The translations under genes were made by a program, and so were the position numbers. From NCBI GenBank assembly GCA_016206785.1, contig JACQQV010000009.1, positions 1 through 54,282 of the forward strand: 54,282 bases of DNA. The letters are read 5' to 3'. The DNA is from Candidatus Omnitrophota bacterium. GTDB lineage: Bacteria > Omnitrophota > Gorgyraeia > JACQQV01. The notes beneath the pieces are model-generated. The model was not told where the DNA came from. It did no database searches and saw nothing but the letters and a program-made list of their open reading frames with translations. This document shows positions 15,731 through 40,194 of the stretch, one piece after another. Numbering within the stretch: the first letter of the stretch is position 1; every line of letters starts with the position of its first letter.

Positions 15731-17878
15731 ATGTTGAAAACAGCATTGCTTGTCTGCTCGCGAATCGGCGTTTGTTGCCTGTTGTTCATGGTTTGCTTGT
15801 TCGATACGTCATCCCTGTTTGCAGAAAAACCTGAGCAGGAGAAAAAGGGGACTGAATTCGAGGAGGGCATTTCGGAAATCCTCTCCGCCCCTTTCGGGAT
15901 TGTCGTCTCCCTCGGCAATATTCTTGTAAGTCCCTCGCGGCTTCCGGGGAAAGCGGAAGCGCTCTACCGGTATCCTTCCCATGTGACCGTCATCACCCAA
16001 GAAGAAATCAGAGCATCGAAGGCGAAAAATATTCCGGAACTTTTACGCCACACCGAAGGGATTTATATGCATGATGCGGTCGGAAATAACCAAGACCTTA
16101 CGGTAAGCCTTCGTGGATTTAACGACGGGGAGGATTTGATTGTTTTGGTAGATGGCATCAAGGTGAATGAACCGGATGCGAATAATATGATCTTTCCACT
16201 CATTCCGCTGGGGACGATCGAGCGGATTGAGATTCATCGGGGAACTTCCTCTGCAATTTATGGAGACGGGGTCTTTTCAGGGGTTGTGAATATCATCACA
16301 AAGCGCGCTCCCGTCGACAAGGAGGCCTTTGCCGAGTCGGCCTTTGAATATGGGAGTTATCAGAGCCAGCGCTACAGTGAATTTGTCGGAGGAAAGGCGG
16401 GCCCGACCGACTGGTCATTTTCTTATGTGAGGGATTTAACCGACGGATACCGTTCAAACGGCGGTTTGCGTGGGACCTTTATCGACGGCAAATGGGCGAT
16501 CTCCTCGGAGGATAAATTCTTGTGGCAGATCCTCGTGAAAAATACCGATGAAAGTATGCAAAATCCAGGGGCCCTCACCGCCTCTGAGATGACAGAGGAC
16601 AGGCGGCAAACAGAGAATCCCTCGGACGGACGCGAGATGTTCATGACGATCGTCTCCACCGATTTGGATTGGAACCTTGAGGAACTTCTTTCGCTCCGGA
16701 CAAATCTTTTTTATCGGGAAACAAGCCTTGACTTTGTCACCACAAGCCGGACCTTTCCGACAACCTCTGGCACCGATGAACTGATTACCGACACCTTCCA
16801 GCGGGGAGTGGTGGTGGAACTCTCTCGGGACCAAGAGATTCTGGGGACCGCCCATCATCTTGTGGCGGGAACTGAGTTTACCTCAAATCTTCAGGATGAT
16901 GAGAGATTTGATACCACAAACGGCGTTCGTACCGCCATCACCACAAGCCGTGTGACAGACAAAAAGACAACCGGTGTCTACGGCCAGTACGACTTTGATG
17001 TAACCGACTGGTGCCGGCTGAATGCGGGGTTGAGGTTTGACGACGTGAGTTTCCATTTTGTGAACGAACTCGATGCGACCGCAAACCGAAAGAATCATTT
17101 CTCGACGACGAGTCCAAAGGTCGGGGTGGTATTACAGCCGTGGGAGGAACGTCTGAGTCTATTTGGAAATTTTTCACGCTCCTTTAAATCGCCGAATATC
17201 TCGGACCTTTTTGCCTTTCCGGGGGTAGGGGGCTCAGACCCCAATCTTGGTCCTGAAAAAGGGGAAAGTTTCGAAGGGGGAGTCCGTTTCAATCTTTGGG
17301 AGAGGATTTTAGGAGCCTTAAGCTATTTTCGGGTTAATTTAAGCGATGAGATTCGATTTGATGGCACCGCCACCTCTGTCGAGTTTCCCTTCGGAAAATT
17401 CACCAATGTGGCAAAGACAAGGCGCCATGGTGTGGAACTCTCCTTAAAAGGAAACACCCTCGGTCTCGATGGGTATTTCACATACGCCTTTACCGACGCC
17501 ACGCTCCGATCAGGCGATAATAGCGGGAGAAAACTCACCATGGTTCCGCCCAATCAGTTTACCTGGGGCGCTTCTCACACCTACCGCGAGGCACTTACCC
17601 TTGGATTCGACGGATTCTATATGGATGATCAGTATGTGACAGGGGATGATGCAAATACCGATTCTCCCTTGGAAGATTACCTGGTCACAAATGCGCAGCT
17701 CGTTTACAAACAGAAAGACGACCTTGAAATTTTCTTCCGTGTGAACAATCTTTTTGATACACTGTATAGCACAAGGGCCGTGATCATCGGCTTTTCCGAG
17801 GCCTTTGCGACTGGTACCCGATTTTTCAATCCGGCCCCGGAGCGGAATGCAACGGTCGGAATCCGACTTAGATTTTAA
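15731..17878 (+). CDS. TonB-dependent outer-membrane receptor, probably for cobalamin
   Basis: 715 residues. A signal peptide (about 1-34) is followed by a plug domain. Plug motifs include VTVITQEEIRASKAKNIPEL, LRGFNDGEDLIVLVDGIKV and TIERIEIHRGTSSAIYGDG. A 22-strand barrel follows, with the usual closing aromatic-rich strand ATVGIRLRF. Family knowledge gives uptake of a large scarce nutrient driven by TonB. The cobalamin riboswitch upstream and a BtuF-like protein downstream make B12 or corrinoid the likely substrate (BtuB role), though sequence alone does not prove it. CGAGGA precedes ATG 15731. Confidence 0.85.
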   Translation: MLKTALLVCSRIGVCCLLFMVCLFDTSSLFAEKPEQEKKGTEFEEGISEILSAPFGIVVSLGNILVSPSRLPGKAEALYRYPSHVTVITQEEIRASKAKNIPELLRHTEGIYMHDAVGNNQDLTVSLRGFNDGEDLIVLVDGIKVNEPDANNMIFPLIPLGTIERIEIHRGTSSAIYGDGVFSGVVNIITKRAPVDKEAFAESAFEYGSYQSQRYSEFVGGKAGPTDWSFSYVRDLTDGYRSNGGLRGTFIDGKWAISSEDKFLWQILVKNTDESMQNPGALTASEMTEDRRQTENPSDGREMFMTIVSTDLDWNLEELLSLRTNLFYRETSLDFVTTSRTFPTTSGTDELITDTFQRGVVVELSRDQEILGTAHHLVAGTEFTSNLQDDERFDTTNGVRTAITTSRVTDKKTTGVYGQYDFDVTDWCRLNAGLRFDDVSFHFVNELDATANRKNHFSTTSPKVGVVLQPWEERLSLFGNFSRSFKSPNISDLFAFPGVGGSDPNLGPEKGESFEGGVRFNLWERILGALSYFRVNLSDEIRFDGTATSVEFPFGKFTNVAKTRRHGVELSLKGNTLGLDGYFTYAFTDATLRSGDNSGRKLTMVPPNQFTWGASHTYREALTLGFDGFYMDDQYVTGDDANTDSPLEDYLVTNAQLVYKQKDDLEIFFRVNNLFDTLYSTRAVIIGFSEAFATGTRFFNPAPERNATVGIRLRF

Positions 17879-17889
17879 AGGAGTTCAAG

Positions 17890-18405
17890 ATGGAGTATGT
17901 CTTAATCGTTTTGGCAGCGCTTGTAAGGGTTCTTCCTCATCCTCCGAACGTTACCCCTGTTGGAGCCATTGCGCTTTTTGGAGGGGCGTATCTTTCTCGC
18001 CGCTTTGCCCTTCTTTATCCCTTGGCCATCATGGCTCTCTCGGATTTTGTGTTGAATCCGATGTATGGACTTCCGCTTATGATCCCAGAGACCCCCTTTG
18101 TCTACGGAAGCTTCCTCATCACAGGCTGTTTGGGACTTTGGTGTCGACGTTACCGCAGCGCCGCTATTCTGTATCTCGCTTCTTTGATCAGTTCCATCCT
18201 GTTCTATCTCATTACCAATTTTGGAACGTGGTTGGTCAGCGGACTTTATCCGAAGAATGCGACGGGACTCCTTCAGTGTTATGTCATGGCCATCCCCTTT
18301 TTCCGGAATAGCCTGATAGGGAACTTCCTCTGGCTTTCGATCCTCCTGGGGGTGTATCGTCTCGCCCATCGTTTCCTTTCTGATCGAAGCCGCGCTTCGG
18401 CCTGA
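17890..18405 (+). CDS. DUF6580-like multi-pass membrane protein
   Basis: 171 residues with about five membrane helices. The start (LVRVLPHPPNVTPVGAIAL) resembles the DUF6580 family of small integral membrane proteins, whose size and fold recall substrate-binding subunits of ECF transporters. AGGAG 7 bases ahead of ATG 17890 and an 11-base gap to the receptor gene place it in the B12 unit. I infer a role in inner-membrane corrinoid handling; no biochemical function is visible in the sequence. Confidence 0.65.
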   Translation: MEYVLIVLAALVRVLPHPPNVTPVGAIALFGGAYLSRRFALLYPLAIMALSDFVLNPMYGLPLMIPETPFVYGSFLITGCLGLWCRRYRSAAILYLASLISSILFYLITNFGTWLVSGLYPKNATGLLQCYVMAIPFFRNSLIGNFLWLSILLGVYRLAHRFLSDRSRASA

Positions 18406-18424
18406 CCCTTTTCTCTTATATCAG

Positions 18425-19099
18425 ATGGTACCCCATACCGCACTGTTATGGACCGGGGGAAAGGATTCCACCCTCGCCCTTTATGAGGCGAAGGCACTGG
18501 GATGGGAGGTGGCGGCCCTCGTCACGTTTATTCCCCCGGCAGCAGAATTTCTGGCTCATCCTCTTTGCGTCATGAAATTCCAGGCGGAGGCACTCGGTTT
18601 CCCCCATTACACCTTCGAAGTACACGAACCTTTTCAGGCAGGTTACGAAGAGGCCCTCCATGCGTTGAAGACGAAGCATGGCATTACGCAATGCATCACG
18701 GGGGATATTGCGGAAGTCGATGGTCAGCCCAATTGGATTAGGGAGTGCAGTCGGTCTTCGGGTGTCCATGTGTGGACCCCTTTGTGGGGGAGGGAAAGAC
18801 GTGAACTCCTCGAAAAACTCCTTGCCCACAAATTTCAGATTATTTTTTCCTGCGTCAAGAAACCTTGGTTCACGATGGAATGGCTGGGGAAGACATTGGA
18901 TCTGAACGCTTTGGAGGCGTTAGAGGTCTTGAGAGAGAAAACCGGATTAGACATCTGCGGAGAAGAGGGGGAATACCACACCTTAGTATTGGATGGCCCT
19001 TTGTTCCGAAAAAGGATTCGTATAGATCAATATTCCAAGGAAACCAAAGATTCACTCATGTATCTCAAGATACAAAAGCTCTCCCTCGCGTCTTCTTGA
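18425..19099 (+). CDS. PF01902 (diphthine-ammonia-ligase-like) ATPase
   Basis: 224 residues of the adenine-nucleotide alpha-hydrolase fold. The PP-loop LLWTGGKDSTLAL is at about 8-20; family-typical stretches GDIAEVDGQPNWI and CGEEGEYHTLVLDGP follow. In eukaryotes and archaea this family (Dph6) uses ATP and ammonia to amidate diphthine; bacteria have no diphthamide, so the substrate differs. Its place between a membrane protein and a BtuF-like protein in a B12-riboswitch unit suggests amidation or another ATP-dependent step in corrinoid salvage, which is inference. Confidence 0.8.
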   Translation: MVPHTALLWTGGKDSTLALYEAKALGWEVAALVTFIPPAAEFLAHPLCVMKFQAEALGFPHYTFEVHEPFQAGYEEALHALKTKHGITQCITGDIAEVDGQPNWIRECSRSSGVHVWTPLWGRERRELLEKLLAHKFQIIFSCVKKPWFTMEWLGKTLDLNALEALEVLREKTGLDICGEEGEYHTLVLDGPLFRKRIRIDQYSKETKDSLMYLKIQKLSLASS

Positions 19100-19141
19100 T
19101 CTTCCTTTTCAAGCCCTCTGGTACTTGCTACAATAGAGACG

Positions 19142-20053
19142 ATGAAGATCGTCTCTTTTTTACCGAGTGCCACCGAAATCCTTTATGCCTTAAATCTGGG
19201 TCGAGCCGTCCACGGGGTCTCCCACGAGTGCGATTATCCGCCGCAAGTCACACGCAAGCCTGTGGTGATGCAGGCCAATTTTCCTTCACAGGATCTTTCT
19301 GACCGCCAGATCGACCGAAGGGTCCGGGAGGCCCTTCAGCGAGGGAGAGAACTTTACCGCATTGACCAAGTTCTTCTGGAAAGGATTGCACCGGATCTCA
19401 TTGTGACCCAAAAGTTGTGCGATGTATGTGCCGTCTCGACCGACACCGTCCAGGCGGCGATCCGTGGCATCTCCCCCAGACCCAAAGTCCTTTCCCTCCA
19501 TCCACACTCCCTCGAGGGAGTTTTCGAGGATATTGTCAGCGTCGGGAAATTGACCGGCAAGACCGAATGGGCGAAGCGGTATGCAGATAGCCTCCGGCGG
19601 CGCGTTGTGCGAGTGCGGGAGAAGACGAGGGGACTTCCAAGACGCCGCGTCTTTTCGATGGAATGGTGTGATCCGATCATGAATGCGGGCCACTGGATCC
19701 CTGAAATGGTTTGGATTGCAGGAGGGGTAGAGGGACTTTCTGAAAAGGGGAAGCCATCTGTGCGGATTCCGTGGGAGAAAGTGCGCCGCTACAACCCTGA
19801 GGTTCTCCTTATCATGCCATGCGGTTTCTCGATGAGGCAGAGTGTTGAAAGGGCTAAAACACTTTCAAGACTTCCCGGCTGGCGCGATCTTCTTGCTGTT
19901 CGGATGAAACAGGTCTATTGTCTGGATGGGTCCTCCTATTACAATCGCCCGGGGCCACGCCTCGTTGAGGGACTCGAAATCATGGCAAAATTGATTCATC
20001 CTGAAGTCTTTAAGACCTCCCGTTTCAAGAAGGGGTCGGTCCAATGTCTGTAA
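19142..20053 (+). CDS. BtuF-like cobalamin-binding protein
   Basis: 303 residues of the metal/corrinoid-binding periplasmic-protein fold (PF01497): MKIVSFLPSATEILYAL at the start, DLIVTQKLCDVCAV in the middle, then a helical backbone and a second lobe. Many relatives are annotated as cobalamin-binding proteins. No export signal is seen at ATG 19142, so it may act in the cytoplasm or the start may be wrong. A TACAAT box ends 7 bases before the ATG. It overlaps the GH1 gene by 10 bases. No partner BtuC/BtuD permease genes lie nearby. Confidence 0.8.
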   Translation: MKIVSFLPSATEILYALNLGRAVHGVSHECDYPPQVTRKPVVMQANFPSQDLSDRQIDRRVREALQRGRELYRIDQVLLERIAPDLIVTQKLCDVCAVSTDTVQAAIRGISPRPKVLSLHPHSLEGVFEDIVSVGKLTGKTEWAKRYADSLRRRVVRVREKTRGLPRRRVFSMEWCDPIMNAGHWIPEMVWIAGGVEGLSEKGKPSVRIPWEKVRRYNPEVLLIMPCGFSMRQSVERAKTLSRLPGWRDLLAVRMKQVYCLDGSSYYNRPGPRLVEGLEIMAKLIHPEVFKTSRFKKGSVQCL

Positions 20054-21354
20054 TTCGATTCCCGAAAAATTTTCTCTGGGGGAGTGCCACTTCTGCCCAT
20101 CAGGTTGAAGGCGGAAACACCATGAACGATTGGTGGGAATGGGAAGAGAAGGGGAAAGCCGCGGATAAATCCGGGGAGGCATGCCAGCATTACTCACGTT
20201 TTCAGGAAGATTTTGACATTGCAAAAGAGCTTCATCACAACGCCCACCGCTTCTCCATCGAATGGAGTCGGATTGAGCCGGAAGAGGGCCAGTGGAGTCA
20301 TTCTACCCTTCTCCATTATCGAGAAGTTCTTCAGACGCTTCGGGCGAGGGGGCTGGAACCGGTCGTCACCCTCCATCATTTCACGAATCCCCGGTGGCTC
20401 TCCCGTCAAGGAGGTTGGGAGAGCCCGACGGTGATCGAGCGTTTTAGCCGTTATGTGCGGTATGTCGTCGATTTTATGGGAAATGACATCCGCTACTGGA
20501 TCACCTTGAACGAACCCCTTGTGTACGTCTATCAAGGATATATCGCAGGGGTCTGGCCGCCCGGCGTGAAATCATTTGAGAAGGCGATTCGGGTTATCCG
20601 TAATCAACTCCTGGCCCATGCCCATGCCTATCGGATTATCCACGCCGTTGCCAAACAGAATCTCTGGCCCATCCCCGCCGTCGGTTTTGCAAAAAATATG
20701 ATCCTTTTTTCTCCTTGCAGCACTCGTTCGTTAGCGGATCGGCTTTCCACATGGATCCGGCACACCTTTTTTAATCGGTTGTATCTCAGAACGCTTACAT
20801 CAGGACGGCTTCTCTATCCCGGGATCTTTTTTGAGAAGCACCCGGTCACCGAGAAAACCCTTGATTTTGTAGGAATCAATTATTACACACGCGACTTTGT
20901 CCATTTCGGAGGGATGACCCTTCCTGAAATTTTTGGAAATATCTGCAGTCTCGAACACCATGTCTCTATCGGCCCACGCAATGATCTTGGCTGGGAGATC
21001 TACCCGGGGGGGCTTTATCAGGCGATCCGAGAAATCTACCGTTTTCGACTCCCGATCCTCGTTACTGAAAATGGACTCTGCACGAATCGCGATGAAGAGC
21101 GGTGGCCTTTTATTCGTGCGCACCTTTTGCAGGTCCATCGGGCGATGGAGGAGGGAATTCCCATTTGGGGTTACCTTTATTGGTCGCTTTTGGATAATTT
21201 CGAATGGGCGGAAGGATTTAAACCCCGTTTTGGGCTCGTCGAGGTCGATTATAAGACCCAACGCCGCACCATCCGTTCCAGCGCGAAACGGTTTGCCGAA
21301 GTCTGCAGAACGGGACAACTGTCTCTTGATGGTCCAGAACCGCCCCGGGCATGA
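20044..21354 (+). CDS. Family GH1 beta-glycosidase
   Basis: 436 residues, full-length TIM-barrel glycosidase of family GH1. The acid/base Glu is E157 in TLNEP and the nucleophile is E342 in VTENG; other family motifs are [15 protein letters not shown] at the N-terminus and [13 protein letters not shown] near the C-terminus. It would hydrolyse beta-glucosides or related sugars in the cytoplasm (no signal peptide). It overlaps the BtuF-like gene by 10 bases and the next gene by 4, so translation is probably coupled, although its function has no clear link to B12. Confidence 0.92.
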
Positions 21355-23477
21355 AGCGGCTTTCAAATTGCGTTTTGATACTTCTTTTCATGGTGGGTAT
21401 AGAGGGTTGTGTACAGAAGGAGAAAAGCGTGACAGAACATGTGACGGGAAAACCGAATCGATTGATTCATGAAAAGAGTCCCTATCTTTTGCAGCACGCC
21501 TATAATCCCGTCGACTGGTATCCGTGGGGAGAGGAGGCGTTTGAGAAAGCAAAGAAAGAGGATAAACCGATATTCCTTTCCGTCGGCTACTCTACATGCC
21601 ACTGGTGCCATGTGATGGAAAAGGAATCGTTCGAGGATTCAGAAGTTGCGAAGATCATGAATGACCATTTTGTCTCCATCAAGGTGGACCGCGAAGAAAG
21701 GCCCGATGTGGACAATATCTACATGTCTTTTGTGATGGCCATGAGTGGTTCCGGGGGATGGCCCTTAAATGTTTTTTTGACGCCGGATCGAAAGCCCTTT
21801 TATGGCGGCACCTATTTCCCGCCGGTTGAGATGTGGGGACGCCCTAGCTTCAAGACCCTTCTCCTCCAGATCGCAGACGCATGGAAAAATCAGAAGGGAT
21901 CCTTACTCGAATCCAGCAACTCCTTGGCGGAGGCGTTTAAAGAACAATCGGATCGCTCATCGGAAAAGAAGTTTACACTTTCTGAGAAAACGCTTGAGGG
22001 AGGTGCGAGTCAATTCGCCTCTCAATATGATGGGTCCTATGGAGGGTTTGGCCCTGCGCCAAAATTCCCGCGAAGTCATACCCTTTCGTTCCTTCTTCGG
22101 CATTGGAAAAGATCAGGCGATCCCAGAGCCCTTGAGATGGTCGAAAAAACTCTTCAAGAAATGGCCAAAGGAGGGATGTATGATCATCTGGGAGGAGGAT
22201 TCCATCGCTATTCCACCGATGGCCAATGGCGCATTCCTCATTTTGAAAAGATGCTTTATGACCAAGCGATTCTTTCCAGAAGTTATCTCGAGGCCTATCA
22301 AGTGACAAAGAAACAAGAGTACGCTGCGACGGCGAGAGACATCTTTGACTACGTACTCCGAGATATGCAAAGCCCGGAAGGGGGATTCTATTCCGCAGAA
22401 GATGCCGACAGCGCCCCAGATCCGAAACATCCTGATGAAAAATCCGAAGGGGCTTTTTATCTTTGGAAGAAAGAAGAGATCTTAAAAATTCTTGGCGAAG
22501 AGAAAGGAAAGGCATTCTCTTATCGCTACGGCATCGAAGAAGAGGGGGGCGTCCTTTATGAAGCGCATCCGGTCGAAGATGCGCTTTCCGAGGAAAAGAA
22601 GAAACTTTTTTCAGAAAGAACAAAACGGTTGCGTCCCCACTTAGACGATAAAATCCTCGTGGATTGGAATGGACTTATGATCTCAAGCTTGGCCTTTGGC
22701 GCTCAGGTGCTCGAGAATCCGCGGTACGAAAAGGCTGCGAGAGAGGCAGCCGATTTTATCCTGGAAAAATTAATTCGGGAGGATGGCCGACTACTTCACC
22801 GGTATCGGGAGAAGGAGGCGGCGATTCTGGGAACCCTTGAGGATTACGCCTTTTTCATTCACGGGCTTTTGGATCTTTACGAAGCAAGTTTTGAAGTCCG
22901 TTATCTTGAATCGGCGAAACGGCTCTGTATTCAGATGCGCGATCTCTTTTGGGATGACAAAGAAGGAGGGTTTTTTCTCACGGGCGATGACGCGGAGAAG
23001 CTTCTCCTTCGCCCGAAAGAACTTTACGACGGTGCTATTCCGTCGGGGAATTCAGTGGCCGTACTTGACCTTTTGCGTCTCGGAAGGTTCACCATGGAAA
23101 GATCTTTTGAGGAAAAAGCGAAACAGCTTTTCGACACTTTCTCCGCCCAGATTGCGCAATCTCCGATGCATTTTCCGCAACTCCTCATCGCCCTTCATTT
23201 CGCGCTCGGCCCTTCCAAAGAAATTGTGATTGCTGGTGAAAAGGAAGACCCGCAGACACAAGCGATGCTTAAAACCATTTATGAGCGGTTTATCCCGAAC
23301 AAAATCGTTGTGCTCCATCCTTCCGGAAAAGAGGGAAAAGCGATTGAATCTCTTGTTCCTTTTGTCGCTTCTCAAGATCCAATGGATGGAAAAACAACTG
23401 CCTATGTCTGTGAAAATTATGTTTGCAATCTTCCCACAAACGATGTGAAGGTGTTGGAATCTCTTTTAGAAAAATAG
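21351..23477 (+). CDS. SSP411/YyaL-type thioredoxin-fold lipoprotein
   Basis: 708 residues. A lipoprotein signal with lipidated Cys C20 (GIEGC) leads into an N-terminal thioredoxin-like domain ([19 protein letters not shown], redox motif C83-H-W-C86). A long alpha/alpha-barrel domain of the six-hairpin glycosidase type follows. The family (human SSP411, bacterial YyaL) is widespread with no proven activity. The lipid anchor places this one in the envelope. It overlaps the GH1 gene by 4 bases. A close paralogue lies at 28837. Confidence 0.9.
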
Positions 23478-23560: not shown

Positions 23561-23592
23561 TTGACATTCCAGTATACTGGAAGGTGTATACT
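23561..23592 (+). promoter_or_regulatory. MerR-type promoter and operator
   Basis: TTGACA (23561-23566) and TATACT (23587-23592) are separated by 20 bases, longer than the usual 17. The perfect 16-bp palindrome TTCCAGTATACTGGAA (23567-23582) fills the spacer. This is the classic layout in which a MerR-family protein untwists an overlong promoter when it binds its metal. It controls the merR gene and the operon behind it. Confidence 0.88.
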
Positions 23593-23608
23593 TAGGGTGA
23601 GGTAAGCA

Positions 23609-24040
23609 ATGGGACGAAACGGCCTTTTTATCGGTGAGTTAAGTAAGCAAACAGGAGTTCCCACAAAAACGGTCCGCTATTATGAGCAGTTCGGTCTCCT
23701 TTCAAAGCCAAAACGGACGGATTCGAGATACCGGCTCTATACTCAAGAAGATGTGGAAAAACTTAAGTTTATCAAGAAAGCCCAAAGTTTTGGACTGAAA
23801 CTTTTAGAGATTCACAGCATCATATCTTGTAGCAAAGAGGGTCTTGAGCCCTGTTGCGATCTGGTCAGGGACCTGTTCAACCGGAAGATCAAAGAATTTG
23901 AGAACAAGATTGAAGAATTGGCTACCATGCGGAATCGACTTAAGGAAAAACTCAAGATGTGGGTTAAACCAAAGCAAGCAAAGAAAACAAAATATGCTGT
24001 TTGCCCACAGATTGAGACAGAAAGGAGAAAAAGAAAATGA
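23609..24040 (+). CDS. MerR-family metal-responsive regulator
   Basis: 143 residues. A winged helix (LFIGELSKQTGVPTKTVRYYEQFGLL) leads into the long dimer helix. Candidate metal ligands are C74 (SCSKEG), C82-C83 (EPCCDL) and C132 (AVCPQIE). Aligned by eye with MerR of mercury operons, C82/83 and C132 match two of its three mercury ligands. The middle Cys of VCACH is absent (here MWVKP), so the metal may not be Hg(II). It autoregulates through the operator at 23567. Confidence 0.9.
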   Translation: MGRNGLFIGELSKQTGVPTKTVRYYEQFGLLSKPKRTDSRYRLYTQEDVEKLKFIKKAQSFGLKLLEIHSIISCSKEGLEPCCDLVRDLFNRKIKEFENKIEELATMRNRLKEKLKMWVKPKQAKKTKYAVCPQIETERRKRK

Positions 24041-24213
24041 CACCCAAAAGAAAAGTATCGCTTTGCCCGGCCTGCGGGGCCTGTCCAGAGGTTGCCCTCT
24101 ACGACAACGAGGTCTGGATCGGGGAGAAAGGAAATCTCGCCAAGCTGAATAAGGAAGCTTGGAATCAACTGGTTGAAGAGATCCAGAAAGGAAACCTCAA
24201 GAAAATCTCATGA
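24037..24213 (+). CDS. Small CxxCxxC protein of the metal operon
   Basis: 58 residues, basic N-terminus followed by CPACGAC (residues 10-16) and then a short domain (VALYDNEVWIGEKGNLAKL). The three cysteines look like a soft-metal or zinc site. AAAGGAG lies about 9 bases ahead of ATG 24037. It overlaps merR and the MerTP gene by 4 bases each. Such a small Cys protein placed between sensor and transporter might pass or buffer metal; I know no defined family for it. Confidence 0.75.
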   Translation: MTPKRKVSLCPACGACPEVALYDNEVWIGEKGNLAKLNKEAWNQLVEEIQKGNLKKIS

Positions 24214-24770
24214 AGGCGCAACGGCTTGGAATCTTATCAGGCGTGGTGGCCTCGGTCTGCTGTCTGGGGCCACCGCTTCTCATCCTTCTTGGACTTGGGA
24301 CATTAGGCCTTGGCTCTTTCTTCGGAAAATACCACTGGTATTTCATCCTGGCTGGGACTCTTCTCTTGGGCTTCGCCTGGAGAAGTTACCTGAAGGAAAA
24401 AAGACGATGCACAACAGCAGGTTGCAGGATGGTTCGGCAGGGACAGACCCGTTCGATTCTTCTTTTAGCAACGCTGATTGTCGCCGTTTTTGTCGGCCTC
24501 AACCTCTACACCTATGCAGGAGGCTATAGCGCCACGGCCCTACTTCAGAAGGCGGGAGAAAAACAGATCGTCATTCCAGTTGAAGGAATGAGCTGTTTTA
24601 CCTGTGAATTAAGCGTTCAAAAAGCGTTAGGAGGCCTTAAAGGGGTTACATCTTCTAAGGCAAGTGCCAAAAAAGGAAGTGTCGCCGTCTCCTACGATCC
24701 AAGCCAGGTTTCGGTTGAGGATCTGGTAGAGGCGATCAACAAAACTGGCTATAGGGCCGAGGAGCCATAG
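24210..24770 (+). CDS. MerT-MerP-type fusion metal transporter
   Basis: 186 residues. MerT-like membrane part: first helix with vicinal C17-C18 (SVCCLGPPLL), a second helix (about 44-58), a cytoplasmic loop with C67 and C72 (RRCTTAGCRM), and a third helix (about 82-100). An HMA domain follows, with GMSCFTC (C129, C132). MerT moves Hg(II) from the periplasm to the cytosol, taking it from MerP; here both are one chain. Without merA in the window the cargo could be another soft metal such as copper. Starts with an ATGA overlap. Confidence 0.88.
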   Translation: MKAQRLGILSGVVASVCCLGPPLLILLGLGTLGLGSFFGKYHWYFILAGTLLLGFAWRSYLKEKRRCTTAGCRMVRQGQTRSILLLATLIVAVFVGLNLYTYAGGYSATALLQKAGEKQIVIPVEGMSCFTCELSVQKALGGLKGVTSSKASAKKGSVAVSYDPSQVSVEDLVEAINKTGYRAEEP

Positions 24771-24781
24771 GAGGTGGGACG

Positions 24782-24958
24782 ATGGGTATCATCCTCGTTA
24801 TTGCGGTCGTTTTCACCGTTTTGATCCTCACTTACACCATTGATCCTGAGGTCAAACGGTGCGAATACTGTGAGGGGCCGATCACCTTGCGAGAGCTTTG
24901 GACCCACTTTAAGAAATGTCCTCTCTGCCCAAAGCCAAAAAGGGGAGGAGCCGACTAA
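24782..24958 (+). CDS. Small membrane protein with zinc-ribbon-like tail
   Basis: 58 residues. One N-terminal membrane helix (IILVIAVVFTVLILTYTI), then a short soluble part with CEYC and CPLC pairs, the layout of a small zinc ribbon or soft-metal site. AGGAGGTGGG stands ahead of ATG 24782. No family recognised. Its place between MerTP and a CopZ-like protein suggests membrane-bound metal hand-over; this is inference. Confidence 0.7.
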   Translation: MGIILVIAVVFTVLILTYTIDPEVKRCEYCEGPITLRELWTHFKKCPLCPKPKRGGAD

Positions 24959-24965
24959 TCGTATC

Positions 24966-25052
24966 GTGAGACAGCTCTTAGGAAGTGTAGCGATCTTGCT
25001 CTTAGTGGGCTTAATCATCTACTGTTGCCTTTTTCTCCATCGGTCGCCATAA
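24966..25052 (+). CDS. Possible 28-residue membrane peptide
   Basis: A GTG-started reading frame encodes a short basic start, one strongly hydrophobic helix containing two adjacent cysteines (LLVGLIIYCCLFLH), and a stop. A GGGGAGGAG stretch lies about 15 bases upstream, which is far, so the start is uncertain. It fills the gap between two genes of the metal operon exactly and ends within the ribosome-binding site of the next. Confidence 0.4.
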   Translation: MRQLLGSVAILLLVGLIIYCCLFLHRSP

Positions 25053-25063
25053 GGAGGCTGGAT

Positions 25064-25603
25064 ATGTCCGGTTCATGCTGCCCCTCATCTCCAAAACCTG
25101 AGCCACCACAGAAAACTGAAACAGAGGACTGTTGTGAGTATCATCCTCCACAGAAATGCGGACCTGAGAAGTGTCCTAAATGCCAGGAGTTGGGGAAAAC
25201 GGTTCAGAGGATGACCCTTGGTTCTCTGGTAAGACCAGAGAAACGCCCTCAGATACCGGTTGTGGATGAGTTCTGCTTCTGCCGAAACCCCCAGTGTGAT
25301 GTGGTCTATTTTCAGTCAGAAAAGATTATCTTTCGAAAAGGTGATTTAAGCGTGAAGGTGGGAATCAAAGAACCTGATAACCCCACCGTCCCAGTCTGCT
25401 ACTGTTTTGGTTGGACCCCAAAGACAATCCGCGCCGAGATCGAAGCGACAGGCAAGACCACAGTGGTAGATCAGATCAAGACCCAGGTGAAGGCCGGCAA
25501 CTGCTATTGCGAAGTGACCAATCCCCAAGGAAGTTGCTGTCTGGGAAACGTCACAAATGTGGTGAAGCAGGTAGCGGCTTTATTCCGAGAAAAGATGCGA
25601 TAA
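25064..25603 (+). CDS. CopZ-type [2Fe-2S]/zinc metallochaperone domain protein
   Basis: 179 residues with 18 cysteines. The core (about 68-165) matches the N-terminal domain of the Archaeoglobus CopZ copper chaperone, which binds a [2Fe-2S] cluster and zinc and can reduce Cu(II). Motifs: EFCFCRNPQCDVVYF, VPVCYCFGWT, AGNCYCEV and GSCCLGN. The C-terminal HMA domain of CopZ is missing, but HMA domains are supplied by two neighbours. A Cys-rich N-terminal tail (SCCPSSP, DCCEYH, KCPKC) adds metal sites. AAGGAGG 6 bases ahead of ATG 25064 fixes the start. Confidence 0.85.
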   Translation: MSGSCCPSSPKPEPPQKTETEDCCEYHPPQKCGPEKCPKCQELGKTVQRMTLGSLVRPEKRPQIPVVDEFCFCRNPQCDVVYFQSEKIIFRKGDLSVKVGIKEPDNPTVPVCYCFGWTPKTIRAEIEATGKTTVVDQIKTQVKAGNCYCEVTNPQGSCCLGNVTNVVKQVAALFREKMR

Positions 25604-25604
25604 G

Positions 25605-26153
25605 ATGCAAAAGACAATTGGATCCTTGATCCTGGTCATCCTCTTGAGCATATCGGTCAGTAGTCAAAGTTCTGCCGAAATTGAAGGGATCCAACTTCAG
25701 GTAGACGGGCTTTCTTGTCCTTTCTGTGCCATCGGGATTAACAAGCATCTAAAGCAGCAAGCCGGTCTCGAAGGGATTGAGGTTCATCTGAAGCAGGGGG
25801 TGACCGAGGGGAAGCTCCCGCCCGGCAAAGGGATCGATATCGGCAAGGTCCGGCAGGCGGTTCAGGAAGCCGGCTTTACGCTTCGGGGGATTAAGCTCAC
25901 GATCATTGGGCGCATTATCCAAGACAACGGCCATTTGGCGATTGAATCCAGGGGCGATGGTACCCAGTTTTTACTCTTTGATCGCGGGCACCGGGAAGTG
26001 GAGTCGGGAATTTTTCTTGAAGAGAAACTGCGGCAAAGACTCGAACAGGCGAGAGGTGCAGGGAAAATCGTCCGTGTCAGCGGAGCGGTGCATGAACATA
26101 AAGGACTCCCTTCAGCCCTCATGATTGAATCAGTTGAAATGATTCCAGAATGA
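25605..26153 (+). CDS. Exported HMA-domain metal-binding protein
   Basis: 182 residues. A signal peptide (IGSLILVILLSISVSSQSSA) is followed by an HMA-type domain with VDGLSCPFC (C38, C41) at about 28-95. A second beta-rich domain (about 97-180) has no clear assignment. The protein should bind a soft metal in the periplasm, like MerP. It starts 1 base after the CopZ-like gene and overlaps the barrel gene by 4. Confidence 0.82.
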   Translation: MQKTIGSLILVILLSISVSSQSSAEIEGIQLQVDGLSCPFCAIGINKHLKQQAGLEGIEVHLKQGVTEGKLPPGKGIDIGKVRQAVQEAGFTLRGIKLTIIGRIIQDNGHLAIESRGDGTQFLLFDRGHREVESGIFLEEKLRQRLEQARGAGKIVRVSGAVHEHKGLPSALMIESVEMIPE

Positions 26154-27040
26154 AATGGCTGCTTGCAATAGGCCTGTTATTTTTTCTTCCAACACCTGCA
26201 TCGGGCGTTGCTATCAATGCCGATATAGGCCTCACCCCCGCCAAAGATCAAACCATCCTTCGCAGTCAGGTCCGCTATCAGCGAAAGTCTGACGATCCAA
26301 CTAATCAAAATCGGGATGAACGGGTCTGGGAATTTCCACAAACCATCGTGTATGGTTTTACAGAAAGTGTTGCAGGAATCTTGACCGTCCCTTATTTGGA
26401 CAAGGAGCTTAGGACCGTCAGTGGAACAGAGCGAATCATCCGAGAGGATAGCGGCGTCGGGGATATCTCTGTTTTGGCGAAATACCTCGCCTATCGTCAA
26501 GACTTTCCGGGTGCCACATCGCGACTTTCCCTCATCGGGGGGATGGAACTGCCGACAGGACAGAGCGGGGATTCCGATGCACAGGGAAAGTTGCCGCGGA
26601 CCCTTCAACTCGGCTCCGGTTCGTGGGACCCGATCGTCGGAGCCGCTTATACCCGCCAGACACTCGACGATGAATGGGATCTCAATGCAACCTATCAGTT
26701 TAATACCGCCTCCAATCAGTTTGAGTTTGGGGATCTTTTAAAATATACCGTCGCCTACCAGAAACGCGTCTGGCCATGGCAACTCCCTGAACGCGGAGTC
26801 TACACCCAATTGAATCTGGTCTTGGAGGCCAACGGTGTCTGGGCTCAAAAGAATCGAAGTGGGGGGAGTCTTGTTGACAACTCGGGAGGGAATACCATCT
26901 TCTTATCTCCTGGCCTTCAGGCCGCCTCTCAGTTTGCCGTGGTGGAGATCTCCGCACAGCTCCCAACCCTCCAGACCCTTAACGGCAACCAAGTAGAGAC
27001 AGACTTTGTGTGGGTCAGCAGTATCCGTGTGACGTTTTGA
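26150..27040 (+). CDS. Outer-membrane beta-barrel, MetA-pathway transporter type
   Basis: 296 residues. A signal peptide (WLLAIGLLFFLPTPASG) is followed by alternating amphipathic strands such as TIVYGFTESVAGILTVPY, GVGDISVLAKYLAY and SRLSLIGGMELPTG, ending in a C-terminal Phe after the strand VWVSSIRVTF. It resembles the PF13557 group of outer-membrane proteins, often annotated simply as transporters. As last gene of the metal operon it could be the outer-membrane port for the metal; no metal-binding motif is obvious in it. Confidence 0.75.
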   Translation: MKWLLAIGLLFFLPTPASGVAINADIGLTPAKDQTILRSQVRYQRKSDDPTNQNRDERVWEFPQTIVYGFTESVAGILTVPYLDKELRTVSGTERIIREDSGVGDISVLAKYLAYRQDFPGATSRLSLIGGMELPTGQSGDSDAQGKLPRTLQLGSGSWDPIVGAAYTRQTLDDEWDLNATYQFNTASNQFEFGDLLKYTVAYQKRVWPWQLPERGVYTQLNLVLEANGVWAQKNRSGGSLVDNSGGNTIFLSPGLQAASQFAVVEISAQLPTLQTLNGNQVETDFVWVSSIRVTF

Positions 27041-28836: not shown

Positions 28837-31137
28837 GTGAAGCTGAGGCATCTTGTCATTCTTGGCGTGGTCTTGGTGAATCTTTTTCTGGCAGCACTTT
28901 TTCTGGATCTTTTCCGGTATAAAAGAATTCCGACGTCTTGGCTCCATCTGAATCATGCCAGCTCTTCTGATGTCATTGTAGAGTCCGATACAACGTCAAA
29001 GAGTAACGCTCACGGACAAAATCGTAAACCGAACCGGCTGATCAACGAGAAGAGCCCTTACCTGTTGCAGCATGCCTACAATCCCGTCAACTGGTATCCA
29101 TGGGGGAGTGAGGCATTTGAGAAGGCGAAGAAGGAGGATAAACCGATCTTTCTTTCGATCGGTTACTCTACCTGTCACTGGTGCCATGTGATGGAAAGGG
29201 AGTCTTTCTCCGATCCAAAGGTCGCTGCCATTATGAACGAGCACTTTGTCTCCATCAAAGTAGACCGTGAAGAAAGGCCTGATGTTGACACTATCTATAT
29301 GGCGGCTGTCATGACGATGACCGGATCCGGCGGCTGGCCCCTCACTGCGTTTGTCACACCGGATCTTAAACCCTTCTATGGCGGGACCTATTTCCCCCCG
29401 GAAGATAAATGGGGGCGTCCCGGACTCAAGACGCTTTTACGGGGAATTGCGGACGCATGGAAGAATCGGAGGGGTGAGGTTCTCCGCTCAAGTGAATCGC
29501 TCACCCAATTGATACAAGCCCAATCGCACACAGAAGCCGGCAAAGGAGTTTCTCTCTCCGAGGAAACGCTTAAAAAAGGATTTCAGCAGTACGCATCTCA
29601 ATTCGATAGCGATGATGGGGGTTTCGGCAGTGCTCCCAAATTCCCGAGAAGCCACTCACTTTCATTTCTCCTTCGGTATTGGAAGAAATCCCAGGACCCC
29701 AAAGCGCTTGAGATGGTGGAGAAGACGTTGCAAGAGATGGCGAAGGGCGGCATGTATGACCATATCGGAGGGGGGTTCCACCGCTATTCCACAGACCCAC
29801 AATGGCGCGTGCCCCATTTTGAGAAGATGCTCTATGATCAGACCATCCTCGCCAAGACCTACCTCGAGGCGTATCAGGTTACGAAAAAAGATGAGTATGC
29901 CAGGATTGCGCGGGAAATTTTCGACTATGTCCTAAGGGACATGACCGGCCCTGAGGGGGGATTTTACTCTGCTGAAGACGCCGATAGCGCCCCGGATCCC
30001 AAACATCCGGATGAAAAATCAGAAGGGGCCTTTTATCTATGGACAAAGAGTGAAGTTTCAAAAATCCTTGGGAAGGAGGAGGCCGAGACATTCAGTTATC
30101 GTTACGGCGTTCAGCCAAACGGAAATACCCCGTTTGATCCGCATGGCGAATTTACCGGAAAGAATATCCTCTATGAAGCCCACAGCCTGGAAGAGACGGC
30201 CGAGAAGTTCGGAAAATCGGTTGAGGAAGCGGGATTAACGCTTCTGGACGCCAAGATGAAACTTTTTGCAACACGCTCCAAGCGCCTTCGGCCCCATTTG
30301 GATGATAAGATTCTCGCCGACTGGAATGGTCTTATGATCTCAAGCCTTGCCTTTGGATCGCGCGTTCTAAATGAGCCAAAATATCGCCAGGCCGCGGAGA
30401 AGGCGGCCGACTTTATCCTCTCAACATTAGTGACGAAGGAAGGAAGACTTCTTCACCGATACCGGAAAGGGGAAGCGGCGCTTGCCGGGACCATTGAAGA
30501 CTATGCCTTTTTCATTCACGGGCTTTTCGACCTTTATGAGGCGACATTTGACTCACGCTATCTGGAGTGGGCGAAGAGACTTGCCGCCACGATGGTTCAA
30601 CTTTTTTGGGACGAGAAAAACGGCGGGTTTTTCTTTACCGCCGATGATGCCGAAAAGCTCCTTTTCCGGCCCAGGGAGTTATACGACGGTGCAATTCCCT
30701 CTGGAAACTCTGTGGCGGCGCTGGATCTTATCCGCGTGGGGCGTCTCACGATGGAAAAAGAGTTTGAAGGAAAGGCGGAGGTCTTAATGAAAACCTTCTC
30801 TGGAGAGATTTCCAACACCCCCATGGCGTATCCACAACTCCTTATCGCTTTAGATTTCGCCTTGGGGCCGTCAAAGGAAATCGTGATCGCCGGCACACCG
30901 GATGATCCGGCCACAGGGGCGATGGTCCGGGAAGTCTTCGGGCGGTTTCTTCCCAATAAAGTCGTAGCACTCCGTCTTCCCGGAGAAGAAGGCGAGAGGC
31001 TTTCAACCCTTGTTCCTTTTGCAAAGCTACAAGTCCCGTTGGGAGGAAAGGCGACCGCTTACGTCTGTGAGAACTATGTTTGCAATCTCCCAACGACAGA
31101 CCTTGAAAAAATGATCACCCTGCTGGAGGAGAAATAA
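28837..31137 (+). CDS. SSP411/YyaL-type protein, second copy
   Basis: 766 residues from a GTG at 28837 with AGGAAGG upstream. It is closely similar to the protein at 21351 along its length, including [19 protein letters not shown], the redox motif C113-H-W-C116 and the glycosidase-like barrel. It differs at the start: an uncleaved membrane anchor ([21 protein letters not shown]) replaces the lipoprotein signal. It also carries an extra segment in the second half (about 430-470). The pairing with L,D-transpeptidase and a DsbD-TlpA protein suggests an envelope redox function; activity unproven. Confidence 0.9.
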
Positions 31138-31139
31138 CC

Positions 31140-32876
31140 GTGGATCCATCTGTGACGACATTTGCGGGACTTTTTCTGATGGGGCTTGCCCTGAATCTCA
31201 CCCCTTGTGTCTACCCCATGATCTCTGTGACGGTCTCCTTATTCGGAGGGAGGGGCCAAACAAAGTTTTCGTCAGCTCTTTTGAGGGCTGTCGTATATGT
31301 CTTCGGGATTGCTGTGATGTACAGCTCTCTCGGTCTGGTTGCGGCTTTTACCGGAGGCCTCTTCGGGGCGCTTCTTCAGAACCGCTGGGTCTTGGGAGGG
31401 ATTGCTTTATTACTTTTCCTGCTCGCCTTAAGCACGTTTGGGGTCTTTCGACTTCAACCACCCAGCTCTCTTTTAAACAAACTATCCAGAAAACAGATGC
31501 CGGGACTTTTCGGCCTTTTTTTCTCAGGTGTCGTCGTTGGCATCTTTGCAGCCCCCTGCATCGGCCCGCCGGTTGTGGCACTTCTTACGTACGTCGGGAC
31601 ACGGGGGGATCCCCTTTTCGGGTTCTGGGCGCTCTTTGTCCTCTCACTCGGCCTGGGGTCTCCCTACATTGTGCTCGGAACCTTTTCAGGGCTTCTGAAG
31701 AAACTTCCAAAATCGGGGATTTGGCTTGTGTGGATTGAGAAGATTTTTGGTGTTATCCTTTTGGTCGTCGCCTCATTTTATTTTTCGCTCGGGTTTGCCC
31801 CGCAGTTTATTCCTTGGATTTTGCCTGCCTCACTCACCCTCGGCGGTATCTATCTCGGTTTTCTGGAAGGCTCCGGGAAGGACCGCCCTGTCTTTCCTTG
31901 GATCAAGAAAGGAATTGGGACTTGCCTGATCGCCTCCAGTCTCTTTCTTACGGCGGCGCCGGTCACTCCCCCAAAAGAAACGGTGGAATGGGAGCCGTTT
32001 CGCATGGAAAGGCTCGCGGAGGCGAAAGAGGCGGGGGAGCCGGTCATCATCGATTTCTATGCGGAGTGGTGCATTCCCTGTCTTGAATTTGAGCGGTTCA
32101 CCTATACCCATCCAAAAGTGATCCAAGAGCTTGAGCCGTTTGTAAGACTCAAGGCCGACCTGACCTATATGGAGGATCCCCGAACAAAAGTGATTGTGGA
32201 CAAATTCGGAATTGTTGCCCTTCCGAACATCGTCTTTCTGGGTCCGGACGGGAGAGAGATAAAGGAATCGCGCATCCTCGGTTTTATGCCTGCCCCTGAA
32301 TTTGTGAAGCGCATCAAGTCCTTAAAAAGGACGATGGGCTTTTCAGTATCGCCGGTTAAAGTCGCTTCCCCTCCCGCAACCGATTCCGCCGACGGAGAGG
32401 AATTGATTGGTACAAAAGCGCCCGAATGGACAGTCTCAAGTTGGTTTAACTCAGAACCAAAGGAACTTTCGGATTTTAGGGGAAAGGTCGTTCTCGTTCG
32501 ATTCTGGACAGGACCAGACTGCCCTTACTGCGCCGCGTCAGCCCCTGTTTTAAATGAGCTCTACAGCCGCTACAGGGAAAAGGATTTTGTTGTGATTGGA
32601 ATCTATCACCATAAGTCCCAGACGCCTTTGACAAAAGAGCATGTGGAGCAGCTCATCAGGAAATACGGGTTTGAATTTCCGGTCGCGATCGATCCAAACT
32701 GGACAACACTCAGAAAGTGGTGGTTAGATGGAAAGGAACGGGCCTGGACTTCCGTTAGCTTCTTGATTGACCAAGAGGGAACGATTCGCTACATCCACCC
32801 GGGCGGTTCCTACACGACGAAGGAGACACAGGAGTTGGAGGCTGCGATCGATCAACTGTTATCCGGCATTTCTTAA
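31140..32876 (+). CDS. DsbD-type thiol reductant transporter fused to a TlpA-like thioredoxin
   Basis: 578 residues from a GTG at 31140 with GGAGGAG upstream. A CcdA/DsbD membrane core of about eight helices carries the two redox cysteines C23 (LTPCVYP) and C140 (AAPCIGP). A periplasmic thioredoxin domain (C311-IP-C314, AEWCIPC) follows, then an AhpC/TlpA-like thioredoxin (C461-PY-C464). It would carry electrons from cytoplasmic thioredoxin to periplasmic thiols. The N-terminal DsbD-alpha domain of E. coli DsbD is absent and the extra TlpA domain takes its place, so a self-contained relay is likely. Only 2 bases separate it from the SSP411 gene. Confidence 0.88.
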   Translation: MDPSVTTFAGLFLMGLALNLTPCVYPMISVTVSLFGGRGQTKFSSALLRAVVYVFGIAVMYSSLGLVAAFTGGLFGALLQNRWVLGGIALLLFLLALSTFGVFRLQPPSSLLNKLSRKQMPGLFGLFFSGVVVGIFAAPCIGPPVVALLTYVGTRGDPLFGFWALFVLSLGLGSPYIVLGTFSGLLKKLPKSGIWLVWIEKIFGVILLVVASFYFSLGFAPQFIPWILPASLTLGGIYLGFLEGSGKDRPVFPWIKKGIGTCLIASSLFLTAAPVTPPKETVEWEPFRMERLAEAKEAGEPVIIDFYAEWCIPCLEFERFTYTHPKVIQELEPFVRLKADLTYMEDPRTKVIVDKFGIVALPNIVFLGPDGREIKESRILGFMPAPEFVKRIKSLKRTMGFSVSPVKVASPPATDSADGEELIGTKAPEWTVSSWFNSEPKELSDFRGKVVLVRFWTGPDCPYCAASAPVLNELYSRYREKDFVVIGIYHHKSQTPLTKEHVEQLIRKYGFEFPVAIDPNWTTLRKWWLDGKERAWTSVSFLIDQEGTIRYIHPGGSYTTKETQELEAAIDQLLSGIS

Positions 32877-35731: not shown

Positions 35732-36172
35732 ATGCTGAAAATCATTTTCGGAGTTCTATTGTGCATCATGGCCTTAGTCATTGTCACACCTCCTACTTAC
35801 GCGGCAGGCAAGTATGCCGTTATCCTCCAGGCGGGCAAAGAAAGTCACGAAGGAACGGCGCGGGCGGTGCATGCATTTCTTTATGCTCGAGAACTCAAAG
35901 AACATGGTCATGAAGTCGTACTGATTTTCGATGGCGCAGGGACCGAGTGGATTGAGGAACTCAGCAATCCGGAAAGTAGTTCAGGGATCAAACCAGCCTA
36001 TGAAGCAGTAAGAAAACTCGGCATCACCGAGATCATTTGCGACTTTTGCTCGGTCGCATTCGGAGTGAAAGATCGTCTTTCGGAACGGAAACTACCGCTT
36101 GTTGCAGAATTTGAAGGTCATCCGAGTATTGCGAAATGGGCAGACGCCGGCTATCAGCTTATTGTGCTATAA
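35732..36172 (+). CDS. Exported DsrE/DsrF-like protein
   Basis: 146 residues. A signal peptide (MLKIIFGVLLCIMALVIVTPPTYA) is followed by a DsrE-like Rossmann fold (KYAVILQAGKESHEGTARAV, HAFLYARELKEHGHEVVLIFDG). A CDFC motif near residue 105 could carry persulfide or metal. DsrE proteins are normally cytoplasmic sulfur carriers; an exported form is less usual. A TATAAT at 35706-35711 may be the -10 of its promoter. AAAGGAG lies 8 bases before ATG 35732. Confidence 0.8.
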   Translation: MLKIIFGVLLCIMALVIVTPPTYAAGKYAVILQAGKESHEGTARAVHAFLYARELKEHGHEVVLIFDGAGTEWIEELSNPESSSGIKPAYEAVRKLGITEIICDFCSVAFGVKDRLSERKLPLVAEFEGHPSIAKWADAGYQLIVL

Positions 36173-36885
36173 TCATTTGTCTTCTCCTTCTTCCAACGGT
36201 GAGGGGCGAAGCGTTTGATCAGACCCATGCCGAGTGGACGCAACTTTTATCGAAACATGTTCATGAAGGCAAAGTGAATTATCGAGGGTTTCTTGAGGCC
36301 AAACCCTTTTTGGAACACTATCTCTTTGAACTTGCTTCTCCAACGCCGCAGGAATTCCGAAGATGGACCAAAGAGGAACAACTCGCTTTTTGGATCAATG
36401 CCTACAACGCCTTCACGGTAAAAATCATTTTGGATCATTATCCGATCCAAAGCATCAAGAAAATTCCTGGGGTCTGGGACCGTTTTACCTTCGATGCGGC
36501 AGGACAGAGGGTCACATTGAATCAGGTTGAGCATTTCATCCTCCGCGCGGAGTTCAAGGAACCGAGAATCCACATGGCCATCGTATGTGCCTCCATAGGA
36601 TGCCCGCCCCTACGGAGCGAAGCGTATATGGCCTCAGAGCTTAATGCGCAGCTGGACGACAACGCGACGCAATTTTTTAAGGATCCCCTGAAGGCGCGAT
36701 GGGATCCTAAGAAAAAGATGCTCTTTCTTTCGCCGATTTTTTCCTGGTTTCGTGAAGATTTCGGATCTCCCCGAGAGTTCTTTTTGTTTGTGAAAAGATA
36801 CCTCCCTCCGGAGATCGCGCATCAGATCGAGGAAGGGAAAACGCATGTGCGCTTTCTTTTTTATGATTGGTCGTTGAACGAATAG
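36136..36885 (+). CDS. DUF547 family exported protein
   Basis: 249 residues. ATG 36136 overlaps the DsrE-like gene by 37 bases. This start gives a proper signal peptide (GRRRLSAYCAIIICLLLLPTVRG), which supports it. The DUF547 domain has typical stretches: AFWINAYNAFTVKIIL, HMAIVCASIGCPPLRSEAY and LSPIFSWFREDF. Function of the family is unknown; it often sits beside arsenic or thiol genes, as here beside arsM. No strong ribosome-binding site, so coupling to the upstream gene is likely. Confidence 0.82.
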   Translation: MGRRRLSAYCAIIICLLLLPTVRGEAFDQTHAEWTQLLSKHVHEGKVNYRGFLEAKPFLEHYLFELASPTPQEFRRWTKEEQLAFWINAYNAFTVKIILDHYPIQSIKKIPGVWDRFTFDAAGQRVTLNQVEHFILRAEFKEPRIHMAIVCASIGCPPLRSEAYMASELNAQLDDNATQFFKDPLKARWDPKKKMLFLSPIFSWFREDFGSPREFFLFVKRYLPPEIAHQIEEGKTHVRFLFYDWSLNE

Positions 36886-36903
36886 ATGAAGGAGAAAAAC
36901 ACG

Positions 36904-40057: not shown

Positions 40058-40072
40058 GGTTACTGATGCCGA

Positions 40073-40171
40073 GGGGTGACGTGGCGTAGGGCTCCCATTC
40101 GCCTGCAGCCGAAAGGCGAAGCCCCTGCCTGCCGGCAGGCAGGGAATGGGATAACACCACGGCAGGACCCC
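40073..40171 (+). repeat. Nested inverted-repeat element between arsS and the MerA-like gene
   Basis: Outer arms GGGGT (40073-40077) / ACCCC (40167-40171), then CGTGG (40080-40084) / CCACG (40157-40161), then CCCATT (40094-40099) / AATGGG (40145-40150). These enclose a hairpin CGCC...GGCG (40100-40118) and a perfect 22-bp palindrome CCCTGCCTGCC/GGCAGGCAGGG (40123-40144). The shape is a three-way junction. It fills the 137-base gap and ends just before the ribosome-binding site of the next gene. Confidence 0.7.
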
Positions 40172-40194
40172 GAGGCGAAAAGGAATCGTGTATT

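Follow-up and report, generated by a model that had tools for sequence, protein, structure and literature searches.

A probable mer-type operon variant in an Omnitrophota genome with a CopZ N-domain protein as candidate replacement for NmerA

Introduction

In classic mer operons, NmerA/MerA receives the metal at handover from MerT. Here we describe a related operon in a stretch of 54,282 nucleotides (hereafter the window) from contig JACQQV010000009.1 of a Candidatus Omnitrophota bacterium. It occupies positions 23561-27040 of the + strand, where a single MerR-type operator precedes eight reading frames that overlap or lie close together, including those of a MerR-family sensor, a MerT-MerP fusion (MerTP) and a CopZ N-domain protein (CopZ-N). 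With the merR-merT-merP-merA operons of Tn501 and Tn21 it shares MerR and a long-spacer promoter, the two cysteine pairs of MerT, the MerP domain and a single gene direction; merA inside the cluster is shared as well, but only in two relatives of the window. Unlike those operons, the window genome and most related loci lack merA, MerT and MerP are fused, the operator half-sites appear zntA-like, and the sensor is one Hg ligand short. CopZ-N, a cysteine-rich microprotein, a secreted protein with a heavy-metal-associated (HMA) domain and an OB fold, and a putative outer-membrane barrel are additions. Neither the Ser-type Cu(I) sensor nor the P1B copper ATPase/HMA-type CopZ partner of CueR/CopA/CopZ-type copper operons is present in the window.

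A 2021 survey of 84,032 genomes left open how MerA-less cells that generate cytosolic Hg(II) survive (PMC8261052). The cassette provides a specific candidate answer, a mercury-type importer with an iron-sulfur (Fe-S) protein as its likely cytosolic partner. Our best reading of the sequence is a mer operon variant in which CopZ-N would stand in place of NmerA, perhaps of MerA, with a periplasmic and outer-membrane module added. An earlier model-made reading of the same DNA (the first-pass annotation) did not recognize the combination as a described system, and we likewise found no account of the whole cassette in the literature searched, which covered few subscription journals.

Architecture and conservation of the operon

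The host genome comprises 1.60 Mb in 50 contigs and is 95% complete. Within the operon, overlaps of 4 bases join MerR to the microprotein, the microprotein to MerTP, and the secreted HMA protein to the barrel. The gaps that follow MerTP measure 11 bases (to a 58-amino-acid peptide), 7 (to a 28-amino-acid peptide), 11 (to CopZ-N) and 1 (to the secreted HMA protein). This spacing suggests that the eight frames form one transcription unit. The gene content given by the first-pass annotation (MerR, a CxxCxxC microprotein, MerT-MerP, a CopZ-type Fe-S protein without its HMA part, a secreted HMA protein and a barrel) was confirmed, each gene in its place (Table 1).

Table 1. Components of the operon, numbered from the first nucleotide of the window
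Feature	Position	Strand	Basis
MerR-type operator/promoter	23561..23592	+	TTGACA, 20-base spacer with palindrome TTCCAGTATACTGGAA, TATACT
MerR-family sensor, 143 aa	23609..24040	+	PF13411 68.7 bits, PF09278 50.5, both above cut-off
Mic58 microprotein, 58 aa, CPACGACP motif	24037..24213	+	reading frame; copies at related loci
MerTP fusion, 186 aa	24210..24770	+	PF02411 38.5 bits (cut-off 32.9) and PF00403 57.1, one chain
Membrane peptide, 58 aa, CEYC and CPLCP motifs	24782..24958	+	ribosome site AGGAGG
Possible membrane peptide, 28 aa, CC, GTG start	24966..25052	+	reading frame only
CopZ N-domain protein (CopZ-N), 179 aa	25064..25603	+	NF047645, PF18423, alignment to 2hu9
Secreted HMA protein, 182 aa: signal peptide, HMA (CPFC), OB fold	25605..26153	+	model, fold search, orthologue
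Putative outer-membrane barrel, 296 aa, Phenol_MetA_deg type	26150..27040	+	orthologue (L011) above PF13557 cut-off

We consider it rather probable that this is a mer-type operon that its own MerR switches on in response to a divalent thiophilic metal, with Hg(II) as the likeliest inducer, and that CopZ-N takes the place of NmerA. Among the evidence for this assignment, MerR-MerT(P)-CopZ-N recurs across 38 loci of Omnitrophota and Elusimicrobiota, the set compared for all locus counts given here, and MerT/MerTP and MerC are mercury-transporter families. MerR was present in 31 of the 38 loci, MerT or MerTP in 30 (plus L011 and L052, where it is cut by a contig end), the secreted HMA protein in 16 and the barrel in 13, every time together with the secreted HMA protein. 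The recurrence of the same genes together in two phyla is more than chance. It upholds the earlier proposal of a metal relay spanning the cell compartments, and the proposed check on conserved co-occurrence gave a positive result, since no barrel occurred without the secreted HMA protein and MerT/MerTP stood beside CopZ-N in most loci.

A CopZ-N scan of 84,980 species genomes returned 12 loci, 11 labelled Omnitrophota and 1 Elusimicrobia. Among 285 Omnitrophota genomes, a family search identified 12 with CopZ-N above its cut-off, and among 248 Elusimicrobiota genomes it identified 15; with so few carriers, the cassette is accessory. Two loci of the Elusimicrobia genome G289 (L157 and L012) are 53-65% identical to the window, compared with 25-43% for the other Elusimicrobiota copies, and this genome also holds a second, divergent copy (L163). 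Identity at this level suggests either that the cassette was recently transferred horizontally or that the assembly is contaminated.

The sensor and its operator

The main determinant of +1 versus +2 metal recognition is Ser77 in CueR and Cys77/Cys79 in CadR/ZntR (PMC9909328). The cysteines of the window MerR are Cys74, Cys82-Cys83 and Cys132 (CPQIE); Cys82/Cys83 occupy the +1/+2 position, the Ser of Cu(I) sensors is not present, and the +2-type Cys is conserved in orthologous sensors. Judged by these residues, the sensor is of the +2-metal type. Its nearest solved relative is Hg-MerR (4ua1), and it keeps two of the three Hg-binding cysteine positions, with an extra adjacent Cys. The set of three Hg-site cysteines is complete in the Elusimicrobiota orthologues, and 5 of 5 tested scored highest against the Hg-MerR family, though below its strict cut-off. 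Because of the +2-type Cys and these Hg-MerR-like orthologues, a divalent thiophilic metal is likely, with Hg(II) the best candidate.

MerR promoters typically have spacers of 19-20 bases (PMC9909328). The operator reads TTGACA-TTCCAGTATACTGGAAGGTG-TATACT, with position 23561 the start of the -35 hexamer. This pattern occurs once in the window, never in 100 shuffles of the window, and once in the whole 1.6-Mb genome. A matching layout lies directly before merR in 17 related loci (16 Omnitrophota, 1 Elusimicrobia), with half-sites such as CTCTGGAGTATACTCTAGAG and the 20-base spacer kept. Elusimicrobiota loci carry CTATACTNNGGTATAG-like sites at the equivalent position, and GTAC-type half-sites of Gram-positive mer operons were seen at L056 and L059.

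MerTP and the CopZ N-domain protein

By both its families and its paired cysteines, MerTP belongs with the MerT/MerP-type importers: it has CC in the first membrane helix, a loop pair in CTTAGC, and GMSCFTC in the C-terminal MerP domain. Its best NCBIfam match is the MerTP family NF033556, with which it shares domain order and cysteine pairs; its score of 105 bits falls short of the cut-off (180), so we regard it as a divergent relative. A search of plasmids gave one distant match. At locus L126 (1827-2414, genome G103), MerR and Mic58 are followed by a MerC-type transporter (PF03203, above cut-off) and a GDCCVxC-domain protein, which replace MerTP and CopZ-N.

CopZ-N is a member of the CopZ_Nterm_CC family (NF047645, putative iron-sulfur cluster-binding metallochaperone), with a score of 122.6 bits (cut-off 100), and matched zf_CopZ (PF18423) at 64.9 bits, above cut-off. 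Alignment to Archaeoglobus fulgidus CopZ (PDB 2hu9) showed that the cysteines of the Zn and [2Fe-2S] motifs are kept. A. fulgidus CopZ acts as a copper chaperone, and its homologous domain reduces Cu(II) (PMC7558416). Unlike that protein, CopZ-N lacks the C-terminal HMA domain and has additional N-terminal Cys motifs, and its operon partner is MerTP in place of a copper ATPase. At L037 (8190-9443), the CopZ-N frame continues stop-free through a signal peptide and on into a second barrel, a joint frame of 417 amino acids with cytosolic and exported parts.

The pairing of CopZ-N with a mercury importer under MerR extends beyond these phyla. On plasmid pK2D_1 (CP036351.1) of planctomycete K2D (L053:4989-6224), CopZ-N, MerT and MerP form a single 411-residue protein adjoining merR; its database label is 'mercuric reductase merA', yet it has no reductase domain. 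Because MerP is periplasmic and MerT contributes three helices, the CopZ-N end would lie on the cytosolic side, where an acceptor is expected. Stanieria has a MerR-MerF-CopZ-N cluster. Both are known from database records, we found no papers describing either, and unlike the window they lack the secreted HMA protein, the barrel and the microprotein. A Methylomonas plasmid carries the core cassette with weak MerT and MerP matches, and plasmids of Stenotrophomonas and Cytobacillus have MerR-CopZ-N pairs with recombinase or transposition genes nearby.

Mercuric reductase and related enzymes

The first-pass annotation had reported no mercuric reductase and no P-type ATPase alongside these genes. 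In a family search of the genome, of which about 5% is missing, neither MerA (top two matches 371 and 288 bits against 454) nor a P1B-ATPase scored above cut-off. A merA gene inside the cluster was found in 2 of the 38 loci (L011 and L052) and a P1B-ATPase in none of them. The annotation had also named merA or a copper-export ATPase as a fixed partner in relatives as grounds for abandoning its proposal; merA is occasional and thus not a fixed partner.

The L011 cluster runs from a MerTP end through MerA, a 59-amino-acid YHS-like protein and CopZ-N to MerR, the secreted HMA protein, the barrel, an NHL protein and the microprotein; L052 has a MerTP end, MerA, DUF3047, a CopZ-N remnant, the secreted HMA protein and the barrel. 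The two MerA proteins scored 537 and 544 bits, above the cut-off of 454, and both end in SCCA; a C-terminal vicinal Cys pair is a defining mark of MerA (PMC8261052). The L052 copy (genome G038) is the only MerA above cut-off among the 285 Omnitrophota genomes. The N-termini of both are short, contain CC and have no HMA domain, consistent with CopZ-N doing the job of NmerA.

The 371-bit match in the window is a MerA-like FAD (flavin adenine dinucleotide) reductase at 40195-41640, which has the redox pair Cys41, Cys46 and no C-terminal Cys pair. MerTP and CopZ-N might hand Hg(II) to this enzyme for detoxification by a separate reductase, an arrangement made conceivable by Synechocystis, in which MerR controls a distant merA (PMC6741143). 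Strong MerA-like matches occur in 8 of 12 CopZ-N genomes versus 61 of 273 other Omnitrophota genomes, the latter including G038 with its genuine MerA (Fisher p 0.002, ancestry ignored). In 6 of the 8, the gene lies within about 15 kb of CopZ-N (ancestry again ignored), and at L047 and L039 the distance is 3 kb, with TVP38-like and DUF547-like genes (named from sequence reading) in between. However, the enzyme falls short of the MerA cut-off and of the C-terminal pair, its gene sits among arsenic-type and other genes in the window, and the linkage may merely reflect a shared metal/redox island. A shared regulon was rejected because the operator occurs a single time in the genome; the reductase is linked to the cassette genomically but does not lie behind this operator. 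We therefore regard a separate reductase as unlikely.

The reductase belongs to an apparent arsenic/redox cluster at 36136-42296, together with a DUF547-like protein, an ArsM-like methyltransferase ending in GGCC, a phosphate-type permease, an ArsS-like radical SAM protein and a TVP38-like membrane protein; apart from the reductase, these names were assigned from sequence reading without a family search.

The same sensor and partner genes bear on copper, which the first-pass annotation had favored: the barrel, secreted HMA protein, MerTP and CopZ-N would import Cu for insertion into cuproenzymes such as heme-copper oxidase. The genome does encode a COX1-family oxidase and no exporter is present; HMA domains carry copper too, as does the characterized relative of CopZ-N, a chaperone that reduces Cu(II) (PMC7558416). 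Nevertheless, this idea was not supported. The sensor has a +2-type Cys instead of Ser, its Elusimicrobiota counterparts are Hg-MerR-like, the transporters are MerT/MerTP and MerC, and MerA is a partner in L011 and L052. A MerR activator triggered by excess metal follows the logic of detoxification, not of import for use, and only 12 of 285 Omnitrophota genomes have the cassette. Copper acquisition was dropped as the leading reading because of the sensor class and the MerC and MerA partners; we retain it as a very unlikely rival.

Proposed pathway

In the pathway we propose, the MerP domain and the secreted HMA-OB protein would bind metal in the periplasm. The metal would cross the inner membrane through MerT by way of the Cys pair of the first helix and then that of the cytosolic loop. 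It would then pass to the cytosolic [2Fe-2S]/Zn protein CopZ-N, possibly with help from the CPACGACP microprotein. CopZ-N would thus act in the role of NmerA and probably form the end of the pathway, by sequestering or reducing the metal. Together, the barrel and the secreted HMA protein may serve as a coupled envelope module through which metal enters, leaves or is scavenged. In a stricter version, CopZ-N is itself terminal, taking Hg(II) from MerT and reducing or permanently sequestering it, so that detoxification is independent of merA and includes an outer-membrane and periplasmic arm absent from classic mer operons; we hold this version to be possible but improbable.

Several observations weigh against a mercury operon with CopZ-N in the place of NmerA. 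No cysteine occupies the middle Hg-ligand position (Cys114/117) in the window MerR, whose best NCBIfam match is ZntR at 94.5 bits, with Hg-MerR at 92.2, both below cut-off. The half-sites of the window operator are of the CTGGAGT type, which we take to be closer to zntA-type operators than to the GTAC type. Most loci lack merA, and a cell with no reductase should suffer damage from free Hg(II) in its cytosol (PMC8261052). Against an exclusive link of the CopZ-N domain with mercury, it adjoins a heavy-metal P-type ATPase on an Enterococcus plasmid, so it is used in more than one metal system. In addition, contigs of metagenome-assembled genomes are short, so that absences near contig ends are weak evidence.

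The ZntR match, the half-sites and the 20-base spacer could also indicate a Zn/Cd/Pb-handling operon, with a ZntR/CadR-like sensor and a metal other than mercury. We think this quite unlikely, as neither the operon nor any of the 38 loci has a P1B-ATPase or another exporter, the transporters belong to mercury-importer families, two relatives have merA, and importing excess Zn, Cd or Pb would make no sense.

In this candidate answer to the survival of MerA-less cells, the likely Fe-S partner forms one chain with the importer in one lineage and stands beside a real MerA in two others. The cassette is small and could be rebuilt in a laboratory strain. Because its characterized Fe-S relative reduces Cu(II) (PMC7558416), whether CopZ-N reduces Hg(II) is a direct question. 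The highly conserved CPACGACP microprotein, which is outside Pfam and NCBIfam families, gains an association, as does the pair of HMA-OB protein and barrel, in two poorly known phyla.

Envelope proteins, microprotein and small peptides

The window copy of the secreted HMA protein scored 12.7 bits, below the cut-off for HMA (PF00403), while its L011 orthologue reached 30.1 against 24.8. In its predicted structure (mean predicted local distance difference test score, pLDDT, 76), an OB fold comes after a ferredoxin-like HMA domain, and structural matches to the model were split between HMA metallochaperones and OB-fold proteins. The model thus shows an OB-fold domain that the first reading had overlooked. 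The barrel had no Pfam match in the window copy; its 70%-identical orthologue at L011 matched PF13557 at 37 bits against a cut-off of 22. Structure prediction of the barrel with three sequences did not resolve the fold (pLDDT 31). An NHL-repeat secreted protein lies between or adjoining the two genes in several loci (e.g., L037:10021-10962, L158, L165, L168), and at L158, L165 and L168 the NHL frame itself runs on into the HMA domain.

Mic58 had no Pfam or NCBIfam family above cut-off and no match on plasmids. Of the 285 Omnitrophota genomes, 10 carry copies about 61-68% identical, almost all of them located at CopZ-N loci, and 9 of these 10 genomes also have a CopZ-N match (Fisher p about 1e-12, ancestry ignored). 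Of the one or two tiny peptides that the annotation had allowed for, the one of 58 amino acids has a good ribosome site, though no relative among the compared loci; the 28-amino-acid frame is only plausible as a real gene.

Neighboring genes

Two paralogous thioredoxin-domain (DUF255-like) proteins lie on either side of the operon (21351-23477 and 28837-31137), followed by a DsbD-thioredoxin fusion (31140-32876). Several related loci have the DUF255-like paralogues and the fusion together with the CopZ-N operon as well. Further upstream in the window (15731-20053), a TonB-dependent receptor gene precedes genes for a small membrane protein, an ATP-pyrophosphatase-like protein and a BtuF-like protein, an order that resembles a cobalamin-type uptake cluster.

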